Shown here piece after piece: positions 8,045-44,117 of a stretch of DNA of 44,117 nucleotides (position 1 is its first letter; each line of letters opens with the position of its first letter). Source of the stretch: Limnochordia bacterium (GTDB lineage Bacteria; Bacillota; Limnochordia; Darwinibacteriales; DTU012); the NCBI GenBank assembly GCA_007116145.1, contig SKJB01000137.1:1-44117 (forward strand). The letters are read 5' to 3'. The notes beneath the pieces are model-generated. The model saw only the letters and a program-made list of their open reading frames with translations, searched no databases and had not been told where the DNA came from. The translations under genes and the position numbers were made by a program.

Positions 8045-8698
8045 GTGCGTACAGGTTTAATTGATTTAGTTGTTAATAAGGCAAAAGAAGCAGGTGTTGT
8101 CGAAGATGATCAAACAGAGGTCTTACATTATGGTCTCATTGCTGGCACCCACCTCTTTAGTGGTATCTTGCTTGTCATGGCTGTAGGTTTGCTCCTTGGC
8201 ACATGGCGTTCGATGCTACTTGTCTGTTGTATTGCTGTTCTATTCCGTCATGTATCAGGAGGGGCGCATCTCAATTCTCCATATAAGTGTTTGTTGTATA
8301 GTGTTTCCGCCTTTACCATGGCTATCTGGCTGGGTGAACGCCTAGCCGAAAAGATAGTCACACTATCGCAAGGGAGCCAAATGTTTTTAGCTCTCAGTGG
8401 GGTTTTTCTGCAATTAGGGTTTGGCCTCTTAGTGGTCGACCTCTATGTTCCTGTCGACCATGTTAATCGTCCCATTACCAACGTAAATGAGCGGAATCGA
8501 TTTCGTCAACTGTCATTTTTGGGAGTTATTGCTGTTAGCATCCTTTTTCTTTGCCTTGTTTTGTTTAAGAGTAGTTGGTGTATATCCTTAGCTATTTTCA
8601 TTGTTTTCTTTCTACATCTCATCTCACTAACTCCTGTCGGTCTAGCTTGGTTTCGGTTTATTTCAGGTTTATCATTTAAGGAAGGAGCGGATGATTAA
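8045..8698 (+). CDS. agrB: AgrB-family autoinducer-processing membrane peptidase
   Basis: A 217-residue polytopic membrane protein of the accessory gene regulator B family. AgrB removes the C-terminal part of the AgrD precursor and links the peptide into a thiolactone. The conserved RHVSGGAH...KC block is present, with the catalytic pair His75 and Cys82 at the same seven-residue spacing as in staphylococcal AgrB. Several hydrophobic segments follow. Start is GTG with AGGAGG upstream. The stop codon overlaps the ATG of agrD (TAATG), so the two are translationally coupled. Confidence 0.94.
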   Translation: MRTGLIDLVVNKAKEAGVVEDDQTEVLHYGLIAGTHLFSGILLVMAVGLLLGTWRSMLLVCCIAVLFRHVSGGAHLNSPYKCLLYSVSAFTMAIWLGERLAEKIVTLSQGSQMFLALSGVFLQLGFGLLVVDLYVPVDHVNRPITNVNERNRFRQLSFLGVIAVSILFLCLVLFKSSWCISLAIFIVFFLHLISLTPVGLAWFRFISGLSFKEGADD

Positions 8699-8823
8699 TG
8701 AAAACAGCATTACTAAAAGTTGTCTGTGCCATTGGTATGGTGCTAGCGGTGTCAACGGCTGCTGGTGCCTGTCTGTCTTGGGCGTATCAACCAGAGGTTC
8801 CTAGTAAGCTATTAAAGAGCTGA
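8698..8823 (+). CDS. agrD: AgrD-like cyclic lactone autoinducer peptide precursor, 41 aa
   Basis: A 41-residue precursor below common ORF-length cut-offs. It has an amphipathic/hydrophobic leader (residues 1-24), a core beginning GACLSWAY and a charged tail YQPEVPSKLLKS. The tail aligns with the DEPKVPKSL tail of staphylococcal AgrD and the QPEVP tails of clostridial cyclic lactone peptides. The thiolactone should form on Cys25. By alignment of the tail the ring is probably C-L-S-W-A (five residues), with Tyr30 the first leaving residue, although a six-residue ring ending in Tyr is possible. The ATG overlaps the agrB stop, and an intrinsic terminator follows 38 bases later. Confidence 0.92.
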   Translation: MKTALLKVVCAIGMVLAVSTAAGACLSWAYQPEVPSKLLKS

Positions 8824-8861
8824 TTGCGGTATGCGTTAGGGAGTGAGTTGTGATTGAGTCC

Positions 8862-8891
8862 GTGAACCTGGATTTCGGGTTCACTTTTTTT
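8862..8891 (+). terminator. Intrinsic terminator after agrD
   Basis: GTGAACC and GGGTTCAC form the stem and are followed by seven T residues. It separates agrBD from the downstream sensor genes, so expression of the sensor either needs read-through or its own promoter. Confidence 0.88.
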
Positions 8892-8922
8892 GTTTTTAAC
8901 CTCTGAACAAAGGGTTCTGGCA

Positions 8923-8954
8923 ACATTTGTCAAAGTAGGTAGATGTGACAATGT
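8923..8954 (+). promoter_or_regulatory. Imperfect inverted repeat upstream of the sensor genes
   Basis: ACATTTGTCA and TGACAATGT are near-complementary arms 13 bases apart, between the agrD terminator and the membrane protein gene. It could be a regulator site. There is no other support. Confidence 0.25.
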
Positions 8955-9016
8955 CAAGCTATCAACAGTACGTTAGTTCTTCTACTTACCCCAAAAAACG
9001 ATCGGAGGATAATTAT

Positions 9017-9499
9017 ATGCTAACAACACTTTTGTTCTATATTCCAGCCACATTAGTGTGTAACTACGTTGTCTTGAGAGTTCTAGGTGTTGATTACAAT
9101 ACCAGGAAATTGTGGGTTTTTGCGTTCCTCCAAGGGGTGATGCTATACATTTTGCGAAATGTCGTTGGGGCTATGGGTTGGCACATTGTAATTCAAACAG
9201 TAAGTCACACGGTGCTATTTTACTATTTGCTGAAGATACCTATTCTAATGGCTATGCTTGTTAAGGCTATTGGATTTATGTTGGTTATGTTCGGGGAAGT
9301 TACGATTGGACCGATAGTTTTGAGATACTATCACCTAACCCTAACAGAAGCGCTGGCTATTCCATGGGTGCAAGCCACTACGGGCTGGTTAGTATATCTT
9401 CCAACCGTACTAATTGCTTTAGGCTTTGTTGTGATGGATTACATCAAAGGCAGGCGTAAAGAGGGTGATTTACAGATTGAAGAAACAAATTCTATTTGA
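9017..9499 (+). CDS. Polytopic membrane protein, probable AgrC-type sensor (peptide-receptor) half
   Basis: A 160-residue protein with about five hydrophobic segments (near residues 2-24, 32-52, 57-75, 76-103 and 118-143) and a basic/acidic C-terminal tail. The ATG at 9017 is chosen because CGGAGGA lies 7 bases upstream; a start at 8945 is in frame but lacks a site. It has no kinase motif. Its 3' end overlaps the GHKL kinase gene by 35 bases. In AgrC the N-terminal membrane domain binds the peptide, and here that domain seems to be a separate polypeptide. The sensor role is inferred from position and topology only. Confidence 0.72.
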   Translation: MLTTLLFYIPATLVCNYVVLRVLGVDYNTRKLWVFAFLQGVMLYILRNVVGAMGWHIVIQTVSHTVLFYYLLKIPILMAMLVKAIGFMLVMFGEVTIGPIVLRYYHLTLTEALAIPWVQATTGWLVYLPTVLIALGFVVMDYIKGRRKEGDLQIEETNSI

Positions 9500-10349
9500 T
9501 AGTGTATTTATTGTTGTTGGTTTTACCCTTCTTGTTATATTAATGGGCTTAGGTAGTTATCAATTTTTAGAATCAGATGAAGTTAACGAGTATCTTTTAG
9601 TCATTATACTATATTTTGGTCCTTTCTTTTTATCTCTTGTCGGATTTTTTTTGTACAATCGTATCCAGCAAACCATGCATGATCAACAAATAATTCAAAC
9701 TCGTGAGAAGGAGTTGAATATCCAGAGGCATGCCGTCGATACCCTGCGCGAACAACGTCATGATATGCTCAATGAATTAGCTCTGATTTCTAGCTACATA
9801 CAATTAGGGCGACTAGAAGCTGCTCTACGGTGTGTAGAACTAGCGTCGGCTAATTTGTCCGATAAGTACAACTACTGTATTTTACCCTATGATGCTTGGT
9901 TAACTGTAATTGCTAATAAGCAGCAAGAAGCACTAACGAAAGGAATTGATTTTCGTGTTTCCCTTGATGGTGATGTTCCTACAGATGCTGCGGAGCAACG
10001 CCTGCTTCCGCGCTTAGTGGGTAATCTATTAGATAATGCATTTGAAGCAGCTAGTAAACAGTCGAGTCCAGTGGTGTCCTTTGTCTGGAAAGTTGAAGAT
10101 GATTATCGGCTTCTGTATGTAAAGAATACAGGGCCAGAACTGCCGCAGGGTGTCCTCGAAAAAATTTTGGCGTCGAGATATACCTCTAAAGAGGGTGGAA
10201 ATCATGGTTGGGGACTTCGAATATGTCAAAAAATTGCCTGTGAACTAGGAACAACGCTAGAATGTACAAGTGATCAAGACACAACCTGTTTTTCGCTGAC
10301 ACTAGCTAAGCCCCAGATAGAATCAGGTGAGGAGCGTGATATTCTTTGA
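9465..10349 (+). CDS. GHKL sensor histidine kinase, AgrC/Spo0B-like
   Basis: A 294-residue kinase with two membrane helices (about 9-29 and 42-65), a coiled linker, a Spo0B/AgrC-like phosphoacceptor helix EQRHDMLNELALIS with His99, and a GHKL ATPase domain: N-box NLLDNAFEA (187-195), KNTGPELP (220-227) and HGWGLRICQKIA (247-258). Two membrane helices are few for an AgrC, which fits the preceding gene supplying the sensor. The GTG at 9465 has AAAGAGGG abutting it; a TTG at 9477 has the same site at 11 bases, so the start is uncertain by four codons. No response regulator gene follows. The partner must be elsewhere. Confidence 0.9.
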   Translation: MIYRLKKQILFDSVFIVVGFTLLVILMGLGSYQFLESDEVNEYLLVIILYFGPFFLSLVGFFLYNRIQQTMHDQQIIQTREKELNIQRHAVDTLREQRHDMLNELALISSYIQLGRLEAALRCVELASANLSDKYNYCILPYDAWLTVIANKQQEALTKGIDFRVSLDGDVPTDAAEQRLLPRLVGNLLDNAFEAASKQSSPVVSFVWKVEDDYRLLYVKNTGPELPQGVLEKILASRYTSKEGGNHGWGLRICQKIACELGTTLECTSDQDTTCFSLTLAKPQIESGEERDIL

Positions 10350-28639: not shown

Positions 28640-29476
28640 GTGAAGCCTAATCAATTGGTAGCACCCGTCCTCAAGTGGGTAGGCGGCAAACGTCAATTAG
28701 TGCATACGATAGCTAAATGTATCCCCGAAAGGATCTCAACGTATTACGAGCCGTTTCTAGGCGGGGGTGCAGTTTTATTTCATGTACAGCCGAAAAAGGC
28801 GGTTGTGAACGACTTGAATGAAGACTTGGTTAATGTTTATCAAGCGATAAAGGATGATGTTGAAGGGCTAATCGACGATTTAAGATTACATAGGAATGAA
28901 AGAGAGTATTACTACAAAATAAGAGCCGTGGATAGAAATAAGAAAGCTTTTGGTGAGCTAACGGATTTGCAAAAAGCCTCGCGGATTATCTACCTGAACA
29001 AGACCTGTTATAACGGTTTATTTAGGGTAAATAGTCAAGGAGAGTTTAATTCTCCGTTTGGCAAGTATAAAAATCCGAATATCGTTAATGAGGGAACACT
29101 CCGAGCAGTGAGTAAGTATTTAAATGCTGCAGAGATTACCTTGAGAAATCAGGACTTTGCCGACGCGATAAAAGGGGCCAAAAAAGGTAGTTTTGTTTAT
29201 TTTGACCCGCCCTATGATCCTATTTCATCAAGTGCAAACTTTACTGGATATAATCGGGGTGGATTTGGTCGAGATGAGCAAACAAGGTTGAAAGTATTGT
29301 GCGATGGGTTAAACAAGAAAGGGATTCACTTCTTGCTCTCTAATTCAGCTACAGATTTTATTTTAGATCTGTATAAGGACTATACGATTGAGTTTGTTAG
29401 AGCGAAACGAGCGATCAACTCAAAGGGAGATAAGCGTGGTGAGGTGAACGAGGTGCTAGTGACCAATTATGGCTAA
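28640..29476 (+). CDS. Dam-family DNA adenine methyltransferase (orphan)
   Basis: A 278-residue N6-adenine methyltransferase of the D12/Dam (alpha) class. KWVGGKRQL (12-20) and EPFLGGGAV (37-45) form the SAM site, NDLNEDLVNVYQAI is the adenine-pocket region, GLFRVNSQGEFNSPFGKY is the Dam/DpnM hallmark, and DPPY (189-192) is the catalytic motif. The class usually methylates GATC. Start is GTG with GGTGGGAGGG upstream. No restriction endonuclease gene is adjacent, so it is probably a solitary methylase used in regulation, repair or protection from foreign restriction. It is preceded by gene-poor sequence, as is common for acquired genes. Confidence 0.92.
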   Translation: MKPNQLVAPVLKWVGGKRQLVHTIAKCIPERISTYYEPFLGGGAVLFHVQPKKAVVNDLNEDLVNVYQAIKDDVEGLIDDLRLHRNEREYYYKIRAVDRNKKAFGELTDLQKASRIIYLNKTCYNGLFRVNSQGEFNSPFGKYKNPNIVNEGTLRAVSKYLNAAEITLRNQDFADAIKGAKKGSFVYFDPPYDPISSSANFTGYNRGGFGRDEQTRLKVLCDGLNKKGIHFLLSNSATDFILDLYKDYTIEFVRAKRAINSKGDKRGEVNEVLVTNYG

Positions 29477-36422: not shown

Positions 36423-36450
36423 TTAGGTCGTAGGGGGTTTAGTTTAGGTG

Positions 36451-36795
36451 ATGACAGAGATATACGATGAGTGGTGGGAGAGAGTGAATGTTTTAATGGA
36501 AGAATTAGAAGGAACAGCCGTTAAAATTAATCTGGAGCGTTGGTATTTTATTATCAGCTACGAATTTGATTATTACCAAGATGAACTGCGACAGCGTCAC
36601 GAAAATCTATCGAGTGGGTTACAAGAAAAATTTTATTTGATACTAGCAGAAATTGACTTCCAGTACCAGTTATTAGCCGCTAGAGCTATGCGTTCGGAAC
36701 AGGTTTTGTGGAGTTTGTTTAATTTCTTGAAAGACTTACCTGGACGTCTTGGTGTCATTTTAGCGAATTTGAGTAACCCACCAATAAGCGGGTGA
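36451..36795 (+). CDS. Small helical hypothetical protein, 114 aa
   Basis: I do not recognise it. The product is predicted mostly alpha-helical, with many Glu, Leu, Tyr and Trp residues, for example YDEWWERVNVLMEELEG and a later FYLILAEIDFQYQLLAARA segment. No signal peptide. A GTG at 36448 directly before the ATG is an alternative start. It starts 28 bases after galE and its stop overlaps the GTG in front of the next gene (GTGA), so it is translationally coupled to the PD-(D/E)XK-like protein and may be its partner or regulator. Confidence 0.65.
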   Translation: MTEIYDEWWERVNVLMEELEGTAVKINLERWYFIISYEFDYYQDELRQRHENLSSGLQEKFYLILAEIDFQYQLLAARAMRSEQVLWSLFNFLKDLPGRLGVILANLSNPPISG

Positions 36796-36800
36796 GAAAC

Positions 36801-37529
36801 ATGGAATATTGTATTAGAGGTAATGAAGGAACCTTCCAACTTCCGAAGAATGGCTCTGACTTAGCTAGTTTTATTGTAGCACACCCTACCTATATTTACC
36901 CGCTAATTAATATTGTGAATGTATTATCAGAGGTAAATTACGACCAACGGTCAGACTTTACTGCCAGTAGCTTGCGTGAGTGTGAGTTGATGGGTCAAGT
37001 AATTGTTGATACACCCGAATCGACCCACTTTGTTCAGGTTCTTGAATCGTTCCTCCAACGAGACATTGCCACCTCAGGGCAATTACGGGGTAAGCTATTA
37101 GAGTATCTTATTAATGCCATTGGACCAATGTCCGATCTTGGGGATGATCGACAGACTGTACGTGACTGTTACCTAGTTGATAGCGAAGAACGGCTAATGG
37201 GTGGTGGCTCTAACTTTGATTTTGCCTTTATCGATTATGAGAATCGGAAGTATGAGTTGTTAGAATGTAAGTTCACTCTTGCTAACTTCCTAGATTACCG
37301 CAAAGCACAGGCTATGCGCAAAATAGAGTATATGGATACTATCTCCAACATTTTGATTGGGAAGAACTACAACGTTCATGTAGCCTTTGTCAGTTTAGCT
37401 TTTAGTATTGCTTATGAACTCTATTTTCTTGATAATCATGGACTAACACAGATTGCGATCTACAATTACGAAGATATGATGACTCGCTTCGAGGTTAGGA
37501 GAAGCTCACAAAAAAACCAGAGCGTCTAA
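36801..37529 (+). CDS. PD-(D/E)XK nuclease-like hypothetical protein
   Basis: A 242-residue protein with a restriction-endonuclease-like pattern: a helix ending near Glu101 (KLLEYLINAI), Asp140 in GGSNFDFAFIDYENRK and Glu155-Cys-Lys157 in YELLECKFTL, which gives the D-x14-E-x-K core of PD-(D/E)XK enzymes, then an alpha helix and a further strand (YNVHVAFVSLAF). About 100 residues precede the core. No DNA-binding motif or methylase is adjacent. The ATG at 36801 follows GGGTGA; GTG at 36792 is an alternative. Fold and catalysis are inferred from motifs only. Confidence 0.6.
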   Translation: MEYCIRGNEGTFQLPKNGSDLASFIVAHPTYIYPLINIVNVLSEVNYDQRSDFTASSLRECELMGQVIVDTPESTHFVQVLESFLQRDIATSGQLRGKLLEYLINAIGPMSDLGDDRQTVRDCYLVDSEERLMGGGSNFDFAFIDYENRKYELLECKFTLANFLDYRKAQAMRKIEYMDTISNILIGKNYNVHVAFVSLAFSIAYELYFLDNHGLTQIAIYNYEDMMTRFEVRRSSQKNQSV

Positions 37530-37582: not shown

Positions 37583-37990
37583 CTAGTTTTGATATGTATC
37601 GGGTAAGCCAAGGATATAAAATTCACGCAACAACCAACTGAGGCAAAAATCGAGACTTGCAGTGGGAATTGTCACCGAGCGGTCCATACCTTGCTTAATA
37701 AGTAGCAATGCGTCATCGCTATTTTGTTGCCAACTTACGGTGATATAACCTTGAGCTGATTGCATCATCGCTAAGGGTGCTTCAGTTAATGGTTCAGGCG
37801 GGATCATATCTTCAAGGCCTACGAGAATACAATCTAGAAACTGAGCAACTTCCGTTTCCGTCAAAATAATTCTCTCTAATTCCTTGGTTTCAAAGGGCTT
37901 GCTAGTCAAAATAAACCAATCTCCCTGATTGTAGTTGTGATATAAACCAATCTTAAAATCCTTTTCTCCCCAAGCGCTAATCATTTCCAC
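37583..37990 (-). CDS. Hypothetical protein, about 135 aa
   Basis: I do not recognise it. It is an acidic soluble protein with alternating strands, for example FKIGLYHNYNQGDWFILTS and GYITVSWQQN, and a C-terminal helical stretch with LSWLLREFYILGLP. The GTG at 37990 has GGGAGGG 8 bases upstream; GTG at 37999 and ATG at 37984 are in frame alternatives. It is a single-gene unit with a good promoter (38039-38067) and terminator, so it is very likely expressed. Confidence 0.6.
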   Translation of the reverse strand: MEMISAWGEKDFKIGLYHNYNQGDWFILTSKPFETKELERIILTETEVAQFLDCILVGLEDMIPPEPLTEAPLAMMQSAQGYITVSWQQNSDDALLLIKQGMDRSVTIPTASLDFCLSWLLREFYILGLPDTYQN

Positions 37991-38038
37991 CTGATTCACC
38001 CTCCCAGCTATTAGGTAATAACAGTTACTATTTATCTA

Positions 38039-38067
38039 ATTATAACTAAATAACTTTCTTTTGTAAA
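38039..38067 (-). promoter_or_regulatory. Sigma-A type promoter of the 135-aa gene
   Basis: On the minus strand TTTACA (38067-38062) and a perfect TATAAT (38044-38039) are 17 bases apart, about 45 bases before the start. Confidence 0.7.
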
Positions 38068-38102
38068 GAGTTTTTCTGTGTCATCATTTTTGGGGGATTT
38101 AA

Positions 38103-38130
38103 TTGACGAATTAGGGTAGAATCTGATAAC
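38103..38130 (+). promoter_or_regulatory. Possible promoter of the 157-aa gene
   Basis: TTGACG (38103-38108) and GATAAC (38125-38130) are 16 bases apart and face the rightward gene. Confidence 0.35.
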
Positions 38131-38181
38131 CTATAACCAGTTAATAGAATCAGTCTAATATTAGTCTATGAGGTGGAAATA

Positions 38182-38655
38182 GTGAAAATCGATTTAACAA
38201 AAGCGGAATTTAAAAAGCTACTTGAAGTCTGTTTCTTGTCGGATTGGATATTATCGGCATATCGGACGGATCATGAAGATTTTCCTTTTATACTAAGTTT
38301 TAAACAGTTGGAGCAAAAGGTGTTTTCACAAACAGAGAAATTTGAGTTTGGTGATCTCGTAGAGTGGGATTCTCAGGGGAAGGAGTATACCACTACCGAG
38401 CAACACGAAGAGTTGATGGATGGAGATGAAGGAGCCATTGCTTATGTTAAGGAGTTTGAAAATGCACTTTTTTGGGATGAATTAAGCCAACGCCTTGCAA
38501 GAAGAGACATTGTGGAACAGGTCGGTGAAGACACGTACCTAAATATGGATCCTTTTGAGCGATTTCGTTTTGTGGAAGAACTAACTGGTAAGTACGCGCA
38601 TGAGTTTCTGGAAAATGGCTTGAAAAACTTGCGAATTAGTTTAGATGATAATTAA
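38182..38655 (+). CDS. Hypothetical acidic protein, 157 aa
   Basis: I do not recognise it. It is strongly acidic and likely helical, with many Glu/Asp and aromatic residues (KAEFKKLLEVCFLSDWILSA; later DPFERFRFVEELTGKYAHEF). No membrane helix or signal. The GTG at 38182 follows AGGTGG by 5 bases; GTG at 38173 is part of that site and is less likely. It is divergent from the 135-aa gene and stands alone. Confidence 0.6.
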   Translation: MKIDLTKAEFKKLLEVCFLSDWILSAYRTDHEDFPFILSFKQLEQKVFSQTEKFEFGDLVEWDSQGKEYTTTEQHEELMDGDEGAIAYVKEFENALFWDELSQRLARRDIVEQVGEDTYLNMDPFERFRFVEELTGKYAHEFLENGLKNLRISLDDN

Positions 38656-38816: not shown

Positions 38817-40283
38817 CTAATTGCTATTGTTTTTGCTCGAATTCCATTTATTGCGTGGTCTCGAACCACGAAATGCTTTCTTTGATTGGTGCCAGTCCTT
38901 CGAACTCGTCGATCGATTATTGGAGTTTGATCGTGAATTATGATCTGAGCGTTGTCTGTTCGTACCTACGGGTCGTTCTTCTGTGAGACGAACTGGTGTT
39001 GTGTTTGGCTCTTTGGTTAAAAGTTTTAGCGCAGCTGAAAGCAAGGATACGGAATCATTTTGATCCAACAGTCCTTCAGCCATGCTGCGATACAAGCTCG
39101 ATGATTCTTCTTCTGCTGCTCGTAACAATCGCTCAATAGCTACTTGTTTTTGTCCTGCAAGTGCTTCATTTAAAGATGGTGCTGGCAAACGTTGAATTTT
39201 TCTCTTTGTTAGCCGTTCAATTAACTTTAAATGGGGCATTTCCCGTGGTGTTATAAAGGTTATGGCTTCTCCACTACGTCCGGCTCGACCAGTTCGACCT
39301 ATGCGATGGATATATCCTTCTGGATCTTGGGGGATGTCAAAATTATAAACGTGGGTTACACCACTGATATCAAGGCCACGAGCAGCCACATCCGTAGCCA
39401 CCAAAATCTCCACGATACCTGATCGAAATTGATTCATTACACTATCACGTTTGCCCTGGGTAAGATCGCCGTGTATCCCCTCGGCAGAGTAGCCACGCTT
39501 ATTAAGAGCTTCTGTTAACTCGTCTACCCGGCGTTTAGTGCGTCCAAAAACAATGGCACTGGTTGGTGAGTGAAGGTCTAAGAGGTTACATAGTGTATCG
39601 AATTTCTTGTTTTCAGGAACCTCTACATAGTGTTGGTCTGTATTTGCTAACGTTACTTCCTTAGGTGCCACCCGAACTAGTTCAGGGTTTATCATAAACC
39701 GCTGCGCTAGAGTCTGAATTTGTCGAGGCATTGTCGCTGAAAACAACATGGTATGTCTTTCCTTAGGCACTTCTTGGAGGATGGTTTCAATATCCTCGAG
39801 AAAACCCATGTTCAGCATTTCATCGGCTTCATCTAATACTACCATCTTAATAGAATTTAACCGAATAGTGCGACGGCGCATGTGATCCATAATGCGACCT
39901 GGTGTTCCCACAATGATCTGTGGTTTCCTTGCTAATGCTTTAATCTGTCTGCGAATATCTTGCCCACCGTAAATAGGTAGACAATTAATTCTGTGAAACG
40001 ATCCAATTTTGTTAATCTCTTCGGACACCTGGACAGCTAATTCTCTCGTTGGTGTCACAACGATTCCTTGGGTGACATAATCTGTAGGTACAAGATTTTC
40101 CATCATAGGTATAGCGAAAGCTACTGTTTTGCCTGTACCAGTCGGGGCTTGTCCGATAAGATCACGTCCAGCTAAAGCTATGGGAATAGTTTGAGCTTGA
40201 ATAGGAGTTGCCTCTTCGAAACCTAGTTTGTTAATGGCTTTTAAAATGGGTTCACTTAAATTTAGTTCTTGAAAAGTTGTCAA
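38817..40283 (-). CDS. DEAD-box ATP-dependent RNA helicase, CshA-like
   Basis: A 488-residue RNA helicase. Motifs in order: Q motif ([13 protein letters not shown]), APTGTGKT (Walker A), [22 protein letters not shown], and in the second RecA domain [11 protein letters not shown] and [12 protein letters not shown] low-complexity C-terminal tail rich in Ser, Asn, Arg and Lys (about 440-488) should bind RNA. Length and layout match CshA, which works in cold adaptation and in the RNA degradosome. Start is TTG with AAAGGGAG upstream. The 5' leader is about 140 bases and contains a hairpin. Confidence 0.93.
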
Positions 40284-40457: not shown

Positions 40458-40666
40458 GGAGCTTCTACGAAAATTCTACCCTATATCAAGGAATTGTATC
40501 CAATTTCCGAAAAAATCCAGACTTGAAGTTAGAGCCTTGATGCTGAATCTTGGTAAACTATGCGATGTGCTCAATATTATGGAATTAAAAGGAAACCCAC
40601 ATGATCAGGCGAATATACTAAAGAGAAGATACGAAATTCGAAGCTAAATGGTCTGGGGAGATAAGC

Positions 40667-40996
40667 ATGGAAAATCACAAAGTCGCTTTGTTTAATGGTC
40701 TAGTTGTAACCACGAATGGTCTATTCCAAGTTAGTGATATTACTCCGGAAGAAGCCAGTCTGTTAGTGCGAGAATGCGGCTATATTTCAGCTGTTGGTCA
40801 CAAAGCAGCCGCTAGTATACTTAGTGAGCTATTAATGGTAAGGGTGGCAATGAACAGAATTCAGTTTTACCAGCAAGTTGGCCAAAAAGCAATTGCCCTC
40901 AAGTTAAATAAACGGCCAGATGAAGGTGTGGTGTTAGACAAAGAGCAAACGCAACAAATTGGGTATTGCTTAAAATTGATTGAACGATTGGAATAA
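40667..40996 (+). CDS. DUF1874 protein, AcrIII-1/Crn2-like ring nuclease
   Basis: A 109-residue protein of the DUF1874 (STIV B116-like) family. This family includes viral AcrIII-1 and cellular Crn2, which cut cyclic tetra-adenylate (cA4) and so switch off type III CRISPR signalling. The core YISAVGHKAAASILSELL aligns with the region around catalytic His47 of SIRV1 gp29; here it is His45. NRIQFYQQVGQKAIALKL and KRPDEGVVL follow as in the family. Length is normal. GGGGAG lies upstream of the ATG and an intrinsic terminator follows. It is a single gene with no CRISPR or cas gene in the window. A host ring nuclease, a phage remnant or another nucleotide role are all possible. Confidence 0.82.
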   Translation: MENHKVALFNGLVVTTNGLFQVSDITPEEASLLVRECGYISAVGHKAAASILSELLMVRVAMNRIQFYQQVGQKAIALKLNKRPDEGVVLDKEQTQQIGYCLKLIERLE

Positions 40997-41009: not shown

Positions 41010-41041
41010 AACCAGGCTTTCGTAGACGAAGCTGGTTTTTT
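41010..41041 (+). terminator. Intrinsic terminator after the DUF1874 gene
   Basis: AACCAG and CTGGTT close an interrupted stem with GCTTTCG/CGAAG inside and are followed by a T-run. Confidence 0.75.
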
Positions 41042-41145
41042 GTTTGCGATAATTGGTTTTTACGTGACAGTACAAGCAGGAAAATGTTACTAAATATCGA
41101 AAGATAGAAGTGGGATGAATAAATCATTTGAGGGGGGTTTTCGAA

Positions 41146-44117
41146 TTGAGTAGAAAGTCTGTTTTTATTGTAATGCTTATTACTATAGTAGCTATTTCGT
41201 TATCTGGATGTCTAAATTTTCGTAATCCAGTGACAGGCAAGATTGGTCCGTCGTGGAGTGTGCCATTGGCTATTCCATTAGTTGACGACACCATAACAAT
41301 TGAAAGTATTCTGCAAAACCAGAGTGAAGTGGAGCAGTCGGAAGAAGGACTGTTGTATTACCATCACTCGGTATCTGAAAGCATTTCCATCGCTGATCAG
41401 ATTGATCTGCAGGATACAAAAACAACAGTAGAAATAAGTGGACTGGATTTGTCTGTTGACGATATTGAGGTTCCGATCGAGAGTGTAGATATCGGTAACC
41501 AAAAAACAGATGTGGAAATTGATGTTAAGGCAGATTTAGATGAGGCGATTGAAGTTGGTGAAGAAATTCGCTATGCAGACCTAGAAGACAGTGTTGAATT
41601 GGCGGAAATCCTGATTGAGCAGAGCATAGAAGTCGACTTTGATGAAATCGATGCTGATCTGGATATTTCGATTTCGCATAGTGAGACGGTTGATTTTAAT
41701 CAGATTGATATGGATATTCCATCGATTGTCCATAATGCAGCTGTAGATTTTACTTTAGTCGATACAACAATTGCCCCTATCATTCATCAAGAAACAATAG
41801 TCAATGGTGCACCCGCGGGCATTACGCTTACATTGCCCATCTCGATGAAGGAGCAAATAGAGTTACCGGATAATAATGATATTCAAAGTATTACTTTGCT
41901 ATCTGGTACGATCGCGGTTGCGGTTACAGGTATTGAGGAGGGGGAACTCACCGTCTCTCAGATTAGCGTTGGTGGACAATCCATAGCTGCAACTGACGGG
42001 GTGCCCAATGCATTTAGCCTTGCAGATATAAACTTAAGTGATGGGATGGATATAGAGCTTGATGGAGAAGTCCAGACTGCAGCTGGTGTAGCAGATAACA
42101 CGGAGCTTCGTCTTACTCTCTCCTTTCATGATGTAGAGTTAAAGAGTTTTGCCGGTTCGATTACCCAAGAAGTACAAATCGATGCAGGAAAGATACTTCC
42201 AGTGGACGCAGATTACCTAGTTGAAGCCATTACCTTAGCAAGTGGTGCACTAGAGATAACCCCGGATAAGCCGAATCTAACCATTGAGTCGTTGAAGCTA
42301 GGTGTGGATGGTGATGCTTTACTTGCTTTAGGCGTGCACGAGTACAATTTAGAAGATATCCGTCTAGCGGACAATATCATGGTGATAATGGAAGCTGTGA
42401 TCACGGGAGATGGACTTGTAGTTGGGGATAGTATAGAGATTACAGCAGCTTTTGCCGACCTTGAGCTAAAGAGCTTTGATGGTTGGGTTAAACAAGAGTT
42501 ACAGTTTGCTGGTGTACACATTCTACCTACAGATGCTGATTATGAATTAGAAAAGATTAAGCTAGAACGTGGAGAAGTAATTCTCACAAGCAATATAGAA
42601 CTAAGTGAGATAGAAATAGAGCTTGGTGGACAAGGTCTGAAGGAAGTAACGAACAACAAATTTGACTTAGAGGATGTAGTGTTGTATGACGATATTCCAG
42701 TTGTTCTAGCAGTAAAAATTCCAGGAGACGGAATTGTAAACGGTCAGATCATTGAGGTGGTTGCGGCATTTGCAGAGATGAAACTCGGTGGATTCGCGGG
42801 TGCTGTTTCGCAGACGCTAGTTATTGCCGGAGATGAAATATTGCCAAACGAAGCAGGAAGTTTTGAATTAACAGAGATGATTATAGAAACTGGATTCTTA
42901 ACATTTGATCCAGGATTAGGAGCAGCTAGCAATGCGAGCTATAGTATTGACTGGATTCGGCCTAAAGGTGGTGCTGCGATCGATCCAGTCGGTGATGGGG
43001 AGTATCCATTGGCTAATCTGGTAATCAACCAAAATTCTGAATTAGAGATTCGGACGACACTCAGTACCGTCGCTGACGAGTACTTGATGCATGAGTCGGT
43101 TTTAGAGTTGAGTGGGTCCCTTAAGGAGATTAAGCTTGCAGAGTTTTCGGGATCCGTCATCCATACGTTTAACACAAGTCTAGTGGATGTTTGGCCAACA
43201 GTAGCTGACATCACTTTAGCCGACGTTGTCTTAGCTGATGGTCGATTGGAGATCGCGGTTACTGGCATTGGGCTTGAAGTGCTCGAGATAACGATCGATG
43301 GGGCGTCACTTAACCCCTATCAAGGGCAACTTAACAGTTATTCATTGCAAAATGTCGCTCTAGCTCCTGATTATGAGCTTGAGATTCGCGCTAAGTTTTA
43401 CGGAGATAACTTGGAGATGGACAAAAGTGCACAGATCGATGTGACGCTAGATCAGCTAGCGGTTGCCACTTTTTCTGGTATTGGGAGCCAAACCGTAGAA
43501 ATTGATGCACAGGAGATCTTTTCGGAAAACGATCAAGATATTGATTTACAGTCCATCACTCTAGATGGGACACTAGCTGTTCACGTAGTGCATCCCAATG
43601 ATAAAGTGAATCTTTGGATTAAAGGGATCAAAATTGACGATATTCCAGTTATCAGTGATCAATCAAGCTCGAGTCTTGACCTGACTGGTATTACACTACT
43701 CTCCAATTCTAGTATGGTGATAGAAGTTGGTATGGAAGCAAGCGCCCTTGAACCAGGTCTGGTTCAGGTTGAGGCAGAACTCTCCAATGTGGTGATTCAA
43801 ACATTTACGGGATCTGTAACACATACAGAAAAAGTTCTGGGTTCTAGCATCCTGCCAACTGGTGATGCAAACTTCTCGGTTGACTATGTGACATTTACAG
43901 ACGGTTTAATAAAAATATTGATCGATTCTATGAACACTGTGGGTAGCGTTGATCTGGAAATCCAAGCGGTAAAAGTGAAGAATCAAAAGGAATTATATTT
44001 TGACCAATCCACTTTTTCTATAGCTGGAATACAGCTAGAACGCGATACGGAGCTCGAGATAATGGTTAAGGTTGATGCAGTGGATGTATCTTTCGACACG
44101 CTTGATATTACTTTAGA
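41146..44117 (+). CDS. Giant repeat-containing lipoprotein (3' truncated by window edge)
   Basis: The frame is open from a TTG at 41146 (GAGGGGGG 8 bases upstream) to the right edge, 990 codons without a stop. The N-terminus is a lipoprotein signal: SRKSV, a hydrophobic helix, then the lipobox ISLSGC (lipidated Cys22), so it is exported and membrane-anchored. PSWSVPLAIPLVDDT follows. Residues 60-200 are very acidic (Asp/Glu/Ile-rich). From about residue 330, a roughly 110-residue unit is repeated at least six times. The acidic, beta-strand-rich repeats suggest a solenoid or stalk at the cell surface, perhaps for adhesion or calcium binding, but I do not recognise the family. Confidence 0.85.
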   Translation, partial: MSRKSVFIVMLITIVAISLSGCLNFRNPVTGKIGPSWSVPLAIPLVDDTITIESILQNQSEVEQSEEGLLYYHHSVSESISIADQIDLQDTKTTVEISGLDLSVDDIEVPIESVDIGNQKTDVEIDVKADLDEAIEVGEEIRYADLEDSVELAEILIEQSIEVDFDEIDADLDISISHSETVDFNQIDMDIPSIVHNAAVDFTLVDTTIAPIIHQETIVNGAPAGITLTLPISMKEQIELPDNNDIQSITLLSGTIAVAVTGIEEGELTVSQISVGGQSIAATDGVPNAFSLADINLSDGMDIELDGEVQTAAGVADNTELRLTLSFHDVELKSFAGSITQEVQIDAGKILPVDADYLVEAITLASGALEITPDKPNLTIESLKLGVDGDALLALGVHEYNLEDIRLADNIMVIMEAVITGDGLVVGDSIEITAAFADLELKSFDGWVKQELQFAGVHILPTDADYELEKIKLERGEVILTSNIELSEIEIELGGQGLKEVTNNKFDLEDVVLYDDIPVVLAVKIPGDGIVNGQIIEVVAAFAEMKLGGFAGAVSQTLVIAGDEILPNEAGSFELTEMIIETGFLTFDPGLGAASNASYSIDWIRPKGGAAIDPVGDGEYPLANLVINQNSELEIRTTLSTVADEYLMHESVLELSGSLKEIKLAEFSGSVIHTFNTSLVDVWPTVADITLADVVLADGRLEIAVTGIGLEVLEITIDGASLNPYQGQLNSYSLQNVALAPDYELEIRAKFYGDNLEMDKSAQIDVTLDQLAVATFSGIGSQTVEIDAQEIFSENDQDIDLQSITLDGTLAVHVVHPNDKVNLWIKGIKIDDIPVISDQSSSSLDLTGITLLSNSSMVIEVGMEASALEPGLVQVEAELSNVVIQTFTGSVTHTEKVLGSSILPTGDANFSVDYVTFTDGLIKILIDSMNTVGSVDLEIQAVKVKNQKELYFDQSTFSIAGIQLERDTELEIMVKVDAVDVSFDTLDITL
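42136..43920 (+). repeat. Tandem protein repeats of about 110 residues within the lipoprotein gene
   Basis: The core phenylalanine of each unit (F-x-G-x-[VI]-x-[QH], then about 10 residues and [IV]-L-P or similar) occurs at codons 42148, 42475, 42793, 43144, 43471 and 43804, giving spacings of 109, 106, 117, 109 and 111 residues. Examples are ELKSFAGSITQEV, ELKSFDGWVKQEL, FAGAVSQTL, FSGSVIHTF and FTGSVTHTE. Units are diverged at DNA level, so the duplications are old. Confidence 0.8.

Follow-up and report, generated by a model that had tools for sequence, protein, structure and literature searches.

Gene content of the locus

The window, by which we mean the full 44,117-nucleotide stretch of Limnochordia bacterium contig SKJB01000137.1 analysed here, encodes a DUF1874 / STIV_B116-like (PF08960) ring-nuclease homologue on the forward strand (40667..40996). 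The gene has an ATG start and specifies a protein of 109 aa, in which residues N10, S41, G44, H45, R64, R83 and E86 can be recognized. Direct reading of the sequence places a ribosome-binding site, GGGGAG (40655..40660, forward strand), 6 nt 5' of the ATG, and an intrinsic terminator-like stem-loop with a T-run 3' of the gene (approximately 41010..41043, forward strand). A terminator scan also returned one site overlapping this stem-loop (0.5 expected in shuffled sequences). The upstream neighbor is a DEAD-box RNA helicase gene (38817..40283, reverse strand; ORF list and Pfam) that is divergently oriented and shares no operon with the DUF1874 gene. Given the 383-nt gap on its 5' side and the stem-loop downstream, we conclude that the DUF1874 gene is a single-gene unit. 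Also present on the contig are hisG/hisI-like, asnS-like and galE-like ORFs, identified by reading the translations by eye. Together with the helicase, these uphold the description in the first-pass annotation of a stand-alone gene between housekeeping-type genes.

Several other features of the window were recorded. Four small proteins (115, 245, 138 and 160 aa) that lack Pfam matches are encoded at 36448-37529 and 37583-38655, in the interval from galE to the DEAD-box helicase. A solitary DNA adenine methylase (Dam-like) ORF is located at 28640-29476, just 5' of the hisI/hisG-like genes, and no restriction partner was seen nearby. A likely peptide quorum-sensing locus (8045-10349) encodes an AgrB-like protein and, after it, an AgrC-like sensor kinase. 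Beyond the stem-loop, an open frame of 996 aa with a lipoprotein-like start and no Pfam match (41128-44117) reaches the contig end.

Protein family, predicted fold and active site

The initial assignment of the protein to DUF1874 is confirmed by a Pfam profile search, in which PF08960 matches over positions 1-101 of its 101 positions (E 5.8e-29, 100.6 bits, cut-off 26). This is the only PF08960 match in the host genome. Also matching are PHROG 5063, a family of unknown function (1.1e-18), and the PADLOC profile PDLC01147, labeled 'Csx16' (2.6e-17). Sequence matches in the PDB include AFV3-109 (2j6b, 1.1e-12), a Csx1-Crn2 fusion (8y7f, 4.9e-06) and STIV B116, with further Csx1-Crn2 fusion entries (8y6z and 8y7g) among the nearest structures by sequence. 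An AlphaFold2 model built from 25 relatives (mean pLDDT 94.3) has the fold of AFV3-109 and SIRV1 gp29. The best TM scores against the PDB are 0.85 to 2j6b, 0.85 to 8y7g (Csx1-Crn2 with cA4) and 0.83 to 6scf (SIRV1 gp29 with cA4).

Residues N10, G44, H45, R64, R83 and E86 are unchanged in all 45 aligned sequences, 33 of them cellular and 12 from viruses or mobile elements. The alignment includes SIRV1 gp29 (NP_666617), AcrIII-1 of phage THSA-485A (YP_006546274), AFV3-109, rudivirus and ATV proteins, Hydrogenobaculum, Vibrio and Fusobacterium phage proteins, and plasmid YddF. The first two of these are experimentally active ring nucleases. His45 of the window protein aligns with His47 of SIRV1 gp29 and corresponds in numbering to His45 of AFV3-109 (PMC1796864), so that its earlier equation with the catalytic His47 of AcrIII-1 was correct. 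The full set of the catalytic histidine and its Arg, Arg and Glu partners is present (H45, R64, R83 and E86) with numbering identical to that of AFV3-109, where His45, Arg64, Arg83 and Glu86 are conserved around the dimer cavity and dimer contact (PMC1796864). In SIRV1 gp29, the H47A variant is inactive and retains cA4 binding (PMC7213978), and degradation of cA4 is lost in the H495A variant of Csx1-Crn2 (PMC7293037). Based on the unchanged residues, the mutant data for these homologues and the match of the model to PDB folds, the prediction of a working ring-nuclease site is well supported. The conservation of the Arg, Glu and His residues points to a functional site and says nothing on the substrate. 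By analogy with its homologues, the protein probably still cleaves short (cyclic) oligoadenylates.

Two variations on the family were noted. Many copies from family f3 (L028, L032 and L035-L044) are longer at the N terminus by about 15-20 residues (with a motif like EELQEL...DG), an extension that the window protein and the viral homologues do not have. In addition, a prophage copy in another genome (G281, L065:2147-2479, reverse strand) has the catalytic GH changed to GY (SRIGYPATA); the family may include a naturally inactive or sponge-like form.

Distribution and phylogeny

DUF1874 genes were identified in 21 of the 37 genomes of the host order, one copy each, and nowhere outside this order in the sampled class (73 genomes). 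An even sample of 398 genomes from the phylum yielded 11 carriers, the host included (10 among the other 397). The copies in Natronincola peptidivorans, Alkaliphilus peptidifermentans and Petroclostridium sp. X23 are 57-63% identical to the window protein.

Phylogenetic analysis of 63 proteins assigns the window protein to a 30-member clade composed of chromosomal copies alone (support 95/94, or 96/93 after removal of ten rows, mostly long branches). The clade comprises the host-order copies and others from Clostridia, including Natronincola, Alkaliphilus and Petroclostridium, and within it families f2 and f3 and most genera are recovered. Three copies from genomes that encode RAMP proteins (L059, L063 and L064) are placed outside the clade, grouped with viral proteins. 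L065, the fourth copy outside the clade, is absent from the tree and adjoins terminase-like and integrase-like ORFs, as judged from translations read by eye. The clade nests among phage homologues. The outgroups closest to it come from Vibrio and Fusobacterium phages and have at most 46% identity, and no homologue on IMG/VR viral contigs exceeds 41%. This distance from viral proteins, along with the restriction of the clade to chromosomal copies, fits an old phage capture followed by vertical inheritance.

Genomic context and selection

In family f3 the DUF1874 gene is part of a fixed cluster, uridine kinase (udk)-DUF1874-EamA transporter. The udk gene, whose product scores above cut-off as a true uridine kinase (TIGR00235/NF004018), is directly 5' of DUF1874 in all f3 carriers. 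On the 3' side in most f3 genomes are the EamA transporter and then an aminotransferase, a glycerate kinase and one more transporter-like gene. Most genomes have gaps of -8 to about 20 nt within the cluster, and the arrangement is consistent with a single shared transcript. For the genus groups of f3, the DUF1874 tree agrees with a tree of udk plus the aminotransferase. The median within-genus dN/dS of DUF1874 is approximately 0.13 (18 usable pairs, with dS near saturation), and the values for udk and EamA are 0.08 and 0.13.

The gene is maintained yet dispensable, as it is missing from six f3 genomes and split in another. In two of the six (G012 and G013) udk and EamA are directly adjacent, and the other four (G015, G020, G021 and G023) have a close copy of neither this udk nor DUF1874. 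The split copy lies in the udk operon of G027 (L045:9032-9569, reverse strand), where about 160 extra bases interrupt the gene, by natural loss or an assembly fault. Given that G012 and G013 keep udk and EamA together without DUF1874, the link to udk as a functional partner could be positional.

Outside f3 the neighbors vary by lineage. The DUF1874 gene is 3' of a pyridine-nucleotide-disulphide reductase/rhodanese gene in f2, with a GGDEF-EAL gene further upstream, 3' of a pseudouridine synthase gene in Alkaliphilus, 3' of a YjgF/L-PSP gene in f5, and directly 3' of rtcB-DUF362 in Natronincola. Thus, the neighbors do not point to one pathway partner. Outside CRISPR, tRNA fragments with 2',3'-cyclic phosphate ends are sensed through CARF in RtcR (PMC7790460). 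A link to RNA repair through rtcB is conceivable, but rtcB adjoins DUF1874 in a single lineage. No phage, integrase or cas gene was found to flank the clade members examined, either with Pfam or by eye.

Type III CRISPR and related systems

The host assembly (2.76 Mb) is 96.6% complete. As a marker for type III systems we used the RAMP superfamily profile PF03787, which is found in effector complexes, and a profile search of the host genome identified no such protein. Also lacking from the host, and from all 37 genomes of its order, are matches to SMODS (PF18144), a profile that may not cover every CD-NTase clade, and to the Csx1 HEPN profile. The observation that no CRISPR system lies near the gene thus extends, for these markers, to the whole genome. 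A link to CBASS finds no support in the PF18144 search (0/37), and an orphan Csx1-type effector in the host order is ruled out by the HEPN result (0/37).

RAMP proteins are encoded in 135 of the 398 genomes in the phylum sample and in three of the 37 in the host order. Within the order they occur in none of the 21 DUF1874 carriers and in three of the 16 non-carriers (Fisher p 0.07). They are also lacking in Natronincola peptidivorans, Alkaliphilus peptidifermentans and Petroclostridium sp. X23. Overall, none of the 30 clade genomes tested is RAMP-positive vs. three of four genomes with a viral-type DUF1874 copy, a contrast that is uncorrected for relatedness (p 0.0007 by genome and about 0.014 by family). 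The 30 genomes include G027, whose split copy is outside the tree, and leave out the MAG contig L024.

Proposed function and alternatives

We propose, with moderate confidence, that a DUF1874 ring nuclease of phage ancestry was adopted by a Bacillota chromosome and has since been inherited as a cellular gene, and that it acts on an oligoadenylate that no resident type III system supplies. The lack of RAMP proteins in the carriers, the clade of copies in housekeeping surroundings, the f3 synteny, the dN/dS values and the maximum of 46% identity to viral proteins argue that the gene is neither a reset switch for a host type III system nor a decaying viral leftover.

If the chemistry is that of AcrIII-1 and Crn2, the protein would be a homodimer with a cradle that binds a symmetric short (cyclic) oligoadenylate. 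Metal-independent in-line attack of a 2'-OH on the neighboring phosphate would open the ring, with His45, held by Arg83, Glu86 and Arg64, as the putative general acid. Less certain is the substrate, which may be an oligoadenylate or a similar 2'-OH-bearing oligonucleotide. Since the hosts lack a type III system as a cA4 source, the substrate would come from something other than a resident one, and the enzyme could have a constitutive clean-up or off-switch role. A bolder version, which we regard as tentative, is that these bacteria use a cyclic (or 2',3'-cyclic-phosphate) oligoadenylate of non-type-III origin, either as a signal or as a by-product, and that the ring nucleases of the clade are its dedicated off-switch. 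If true, there would be an unrecognized non-CRISPR oligoadenylate pathway in Bacillota.

The main rival to this proposal is an anti-CRISPR function held by the host, in which the enzyme destroys the cA4 of type III systems brought in by mobile elements or prophages and so shields the cell or its own useful elements from the toxicity of cyclic oligoadenylates. A cell with the enzyme cannot use type III, and this would explain the zero overlap of DUF1874 with RAMP proteins, both in the host order and in the comparison of clade with viral-type copies. However, the host order is poor in type III overall, so that the non-overlap may be simply lineage-driven, and no mobile type III system was seen entering these hosts. 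The lack of overlap fits both readings, and we consider the anti-CRISPR function unlikely.

A nucleic-acid-binding regulator that no longer needs catalysis, as once proposed for AFV3-109, is quite improbable. Binding of dsDNA was reported for AFV3-109 (PMC1796864), but a purely binding role would not call for catalytic residues that are all unchanged across a wide bacterial range, and the sole deviation seen, the change of His to Tyr, belongs to the prophage copy and not to the clade.

We find it very doubtful that the gene is a viral leftover, that is, a recent phage or integrative-element gene drifting in the chromosome. The nesting of the clade among phage homologues and the residence of relatives such as YddF in mobile elements (PMC1796864) would suit such an origin, but the clade members examined have no phage or integrase gene beside them, f3 synteny is fixed and agrees with the genera, selection is purifying, and viral homologues do not exceed 46% identity. 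A recent prophage origin is rejected on the genes flanking the clade members and this same limit on viral identity. The suggestion of a viral leftover in the first-pass annotation is thus retained as a distant origin and dropped as a description of the present state, given an intact gene that is conserved across families, sits at fixed positions and differs from viral homologues.

Family membership and active site aside, it is scarcely credible that the gene is Crn2 proper, resetting a type III system elsewhere in the genome as was also suggested, because RAMP proteins are lacking in the assembled 96.6% of the host genome and in the other 29 clade genomes tested and Csx1 HEPN was not found. 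Of the three roles first put forward, a wider nucleotide role is the one that survives as a possibility.

Comparison with known systems

A 2025 survey of ring nucleases covered regions within 6 kb of type III loci, along with phage genomes, and counted AcrIII-1/Crn2 in seven type III loci and 36 phage genomes (PMC12409355). From these, the enzyme was inferred to be viral in origin, and it is treated there as a weapon of viruses that type III hosts have taken up on occasion (PMC12409355). Our literature search, the scope of which did not take in the founding 2020 Nature paper on AcrIII-1, found no earlier account of a lineage that is inherited vertically, and has kept its site intact, in hosts without type III. 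A conserved chromosomal lineage of this kind would mean either that an anti-CRISPR enzyme serves the hosts that retain it or that CRISPR-free oligoadenylate chemistry occurs in these cells.

The window protein shares with AcrIII-1 (SIRV1 gp29 and that of phage THSA-485A) its Pfam family, fold (TM 0.83 to 6scf) and N, GH, R, R and E residues. Unlike the virus-encoded AcrIII-1 proteins, to which it is 19-29% identical, it is chromosomal, vertically kept and in a separate clade, with housekeeping neighbors and no close viral homologue. Crn2, known from the Marinitoga Csx1-Crn2 fusion and as a stand-alone protein in type III loci, shares its fold (TM 0.85 to the cA4-bound 8y7g) and active site with the window protein. 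However, Crn2 is defined by its association with type III loci, and the window gene, like the clade, is in hosts without type III. YddF of B. subtilis ICEBs1 and related elements and AFV3-109 belong to the same Pfam family. YddF occurs in integrative elements or plasmids and is read as proviral, whereas the clade is outside such elements. Homologues in Alkaliphilus, Clostridium and Bacillus were already pointed out in 2007, when they were interpreted as possibly proviral (PMC1796864).

The resemblance to Csx16 is that PDLC01147 matches the window protein. The label denotes a CRISPR accessory gene, whereas Pfam assigns PF08960, and it looks as if the PADLOC profile also covers DUF1874. Defense annotation would thus list a CRISPR accessory gene for a genome free of type III, and tools that tag DUF1874 in this way would misread the clade. 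In summary, the family and its chemistry were known already; what is new is a vertically kept, type-III-free lineage with an intact site.
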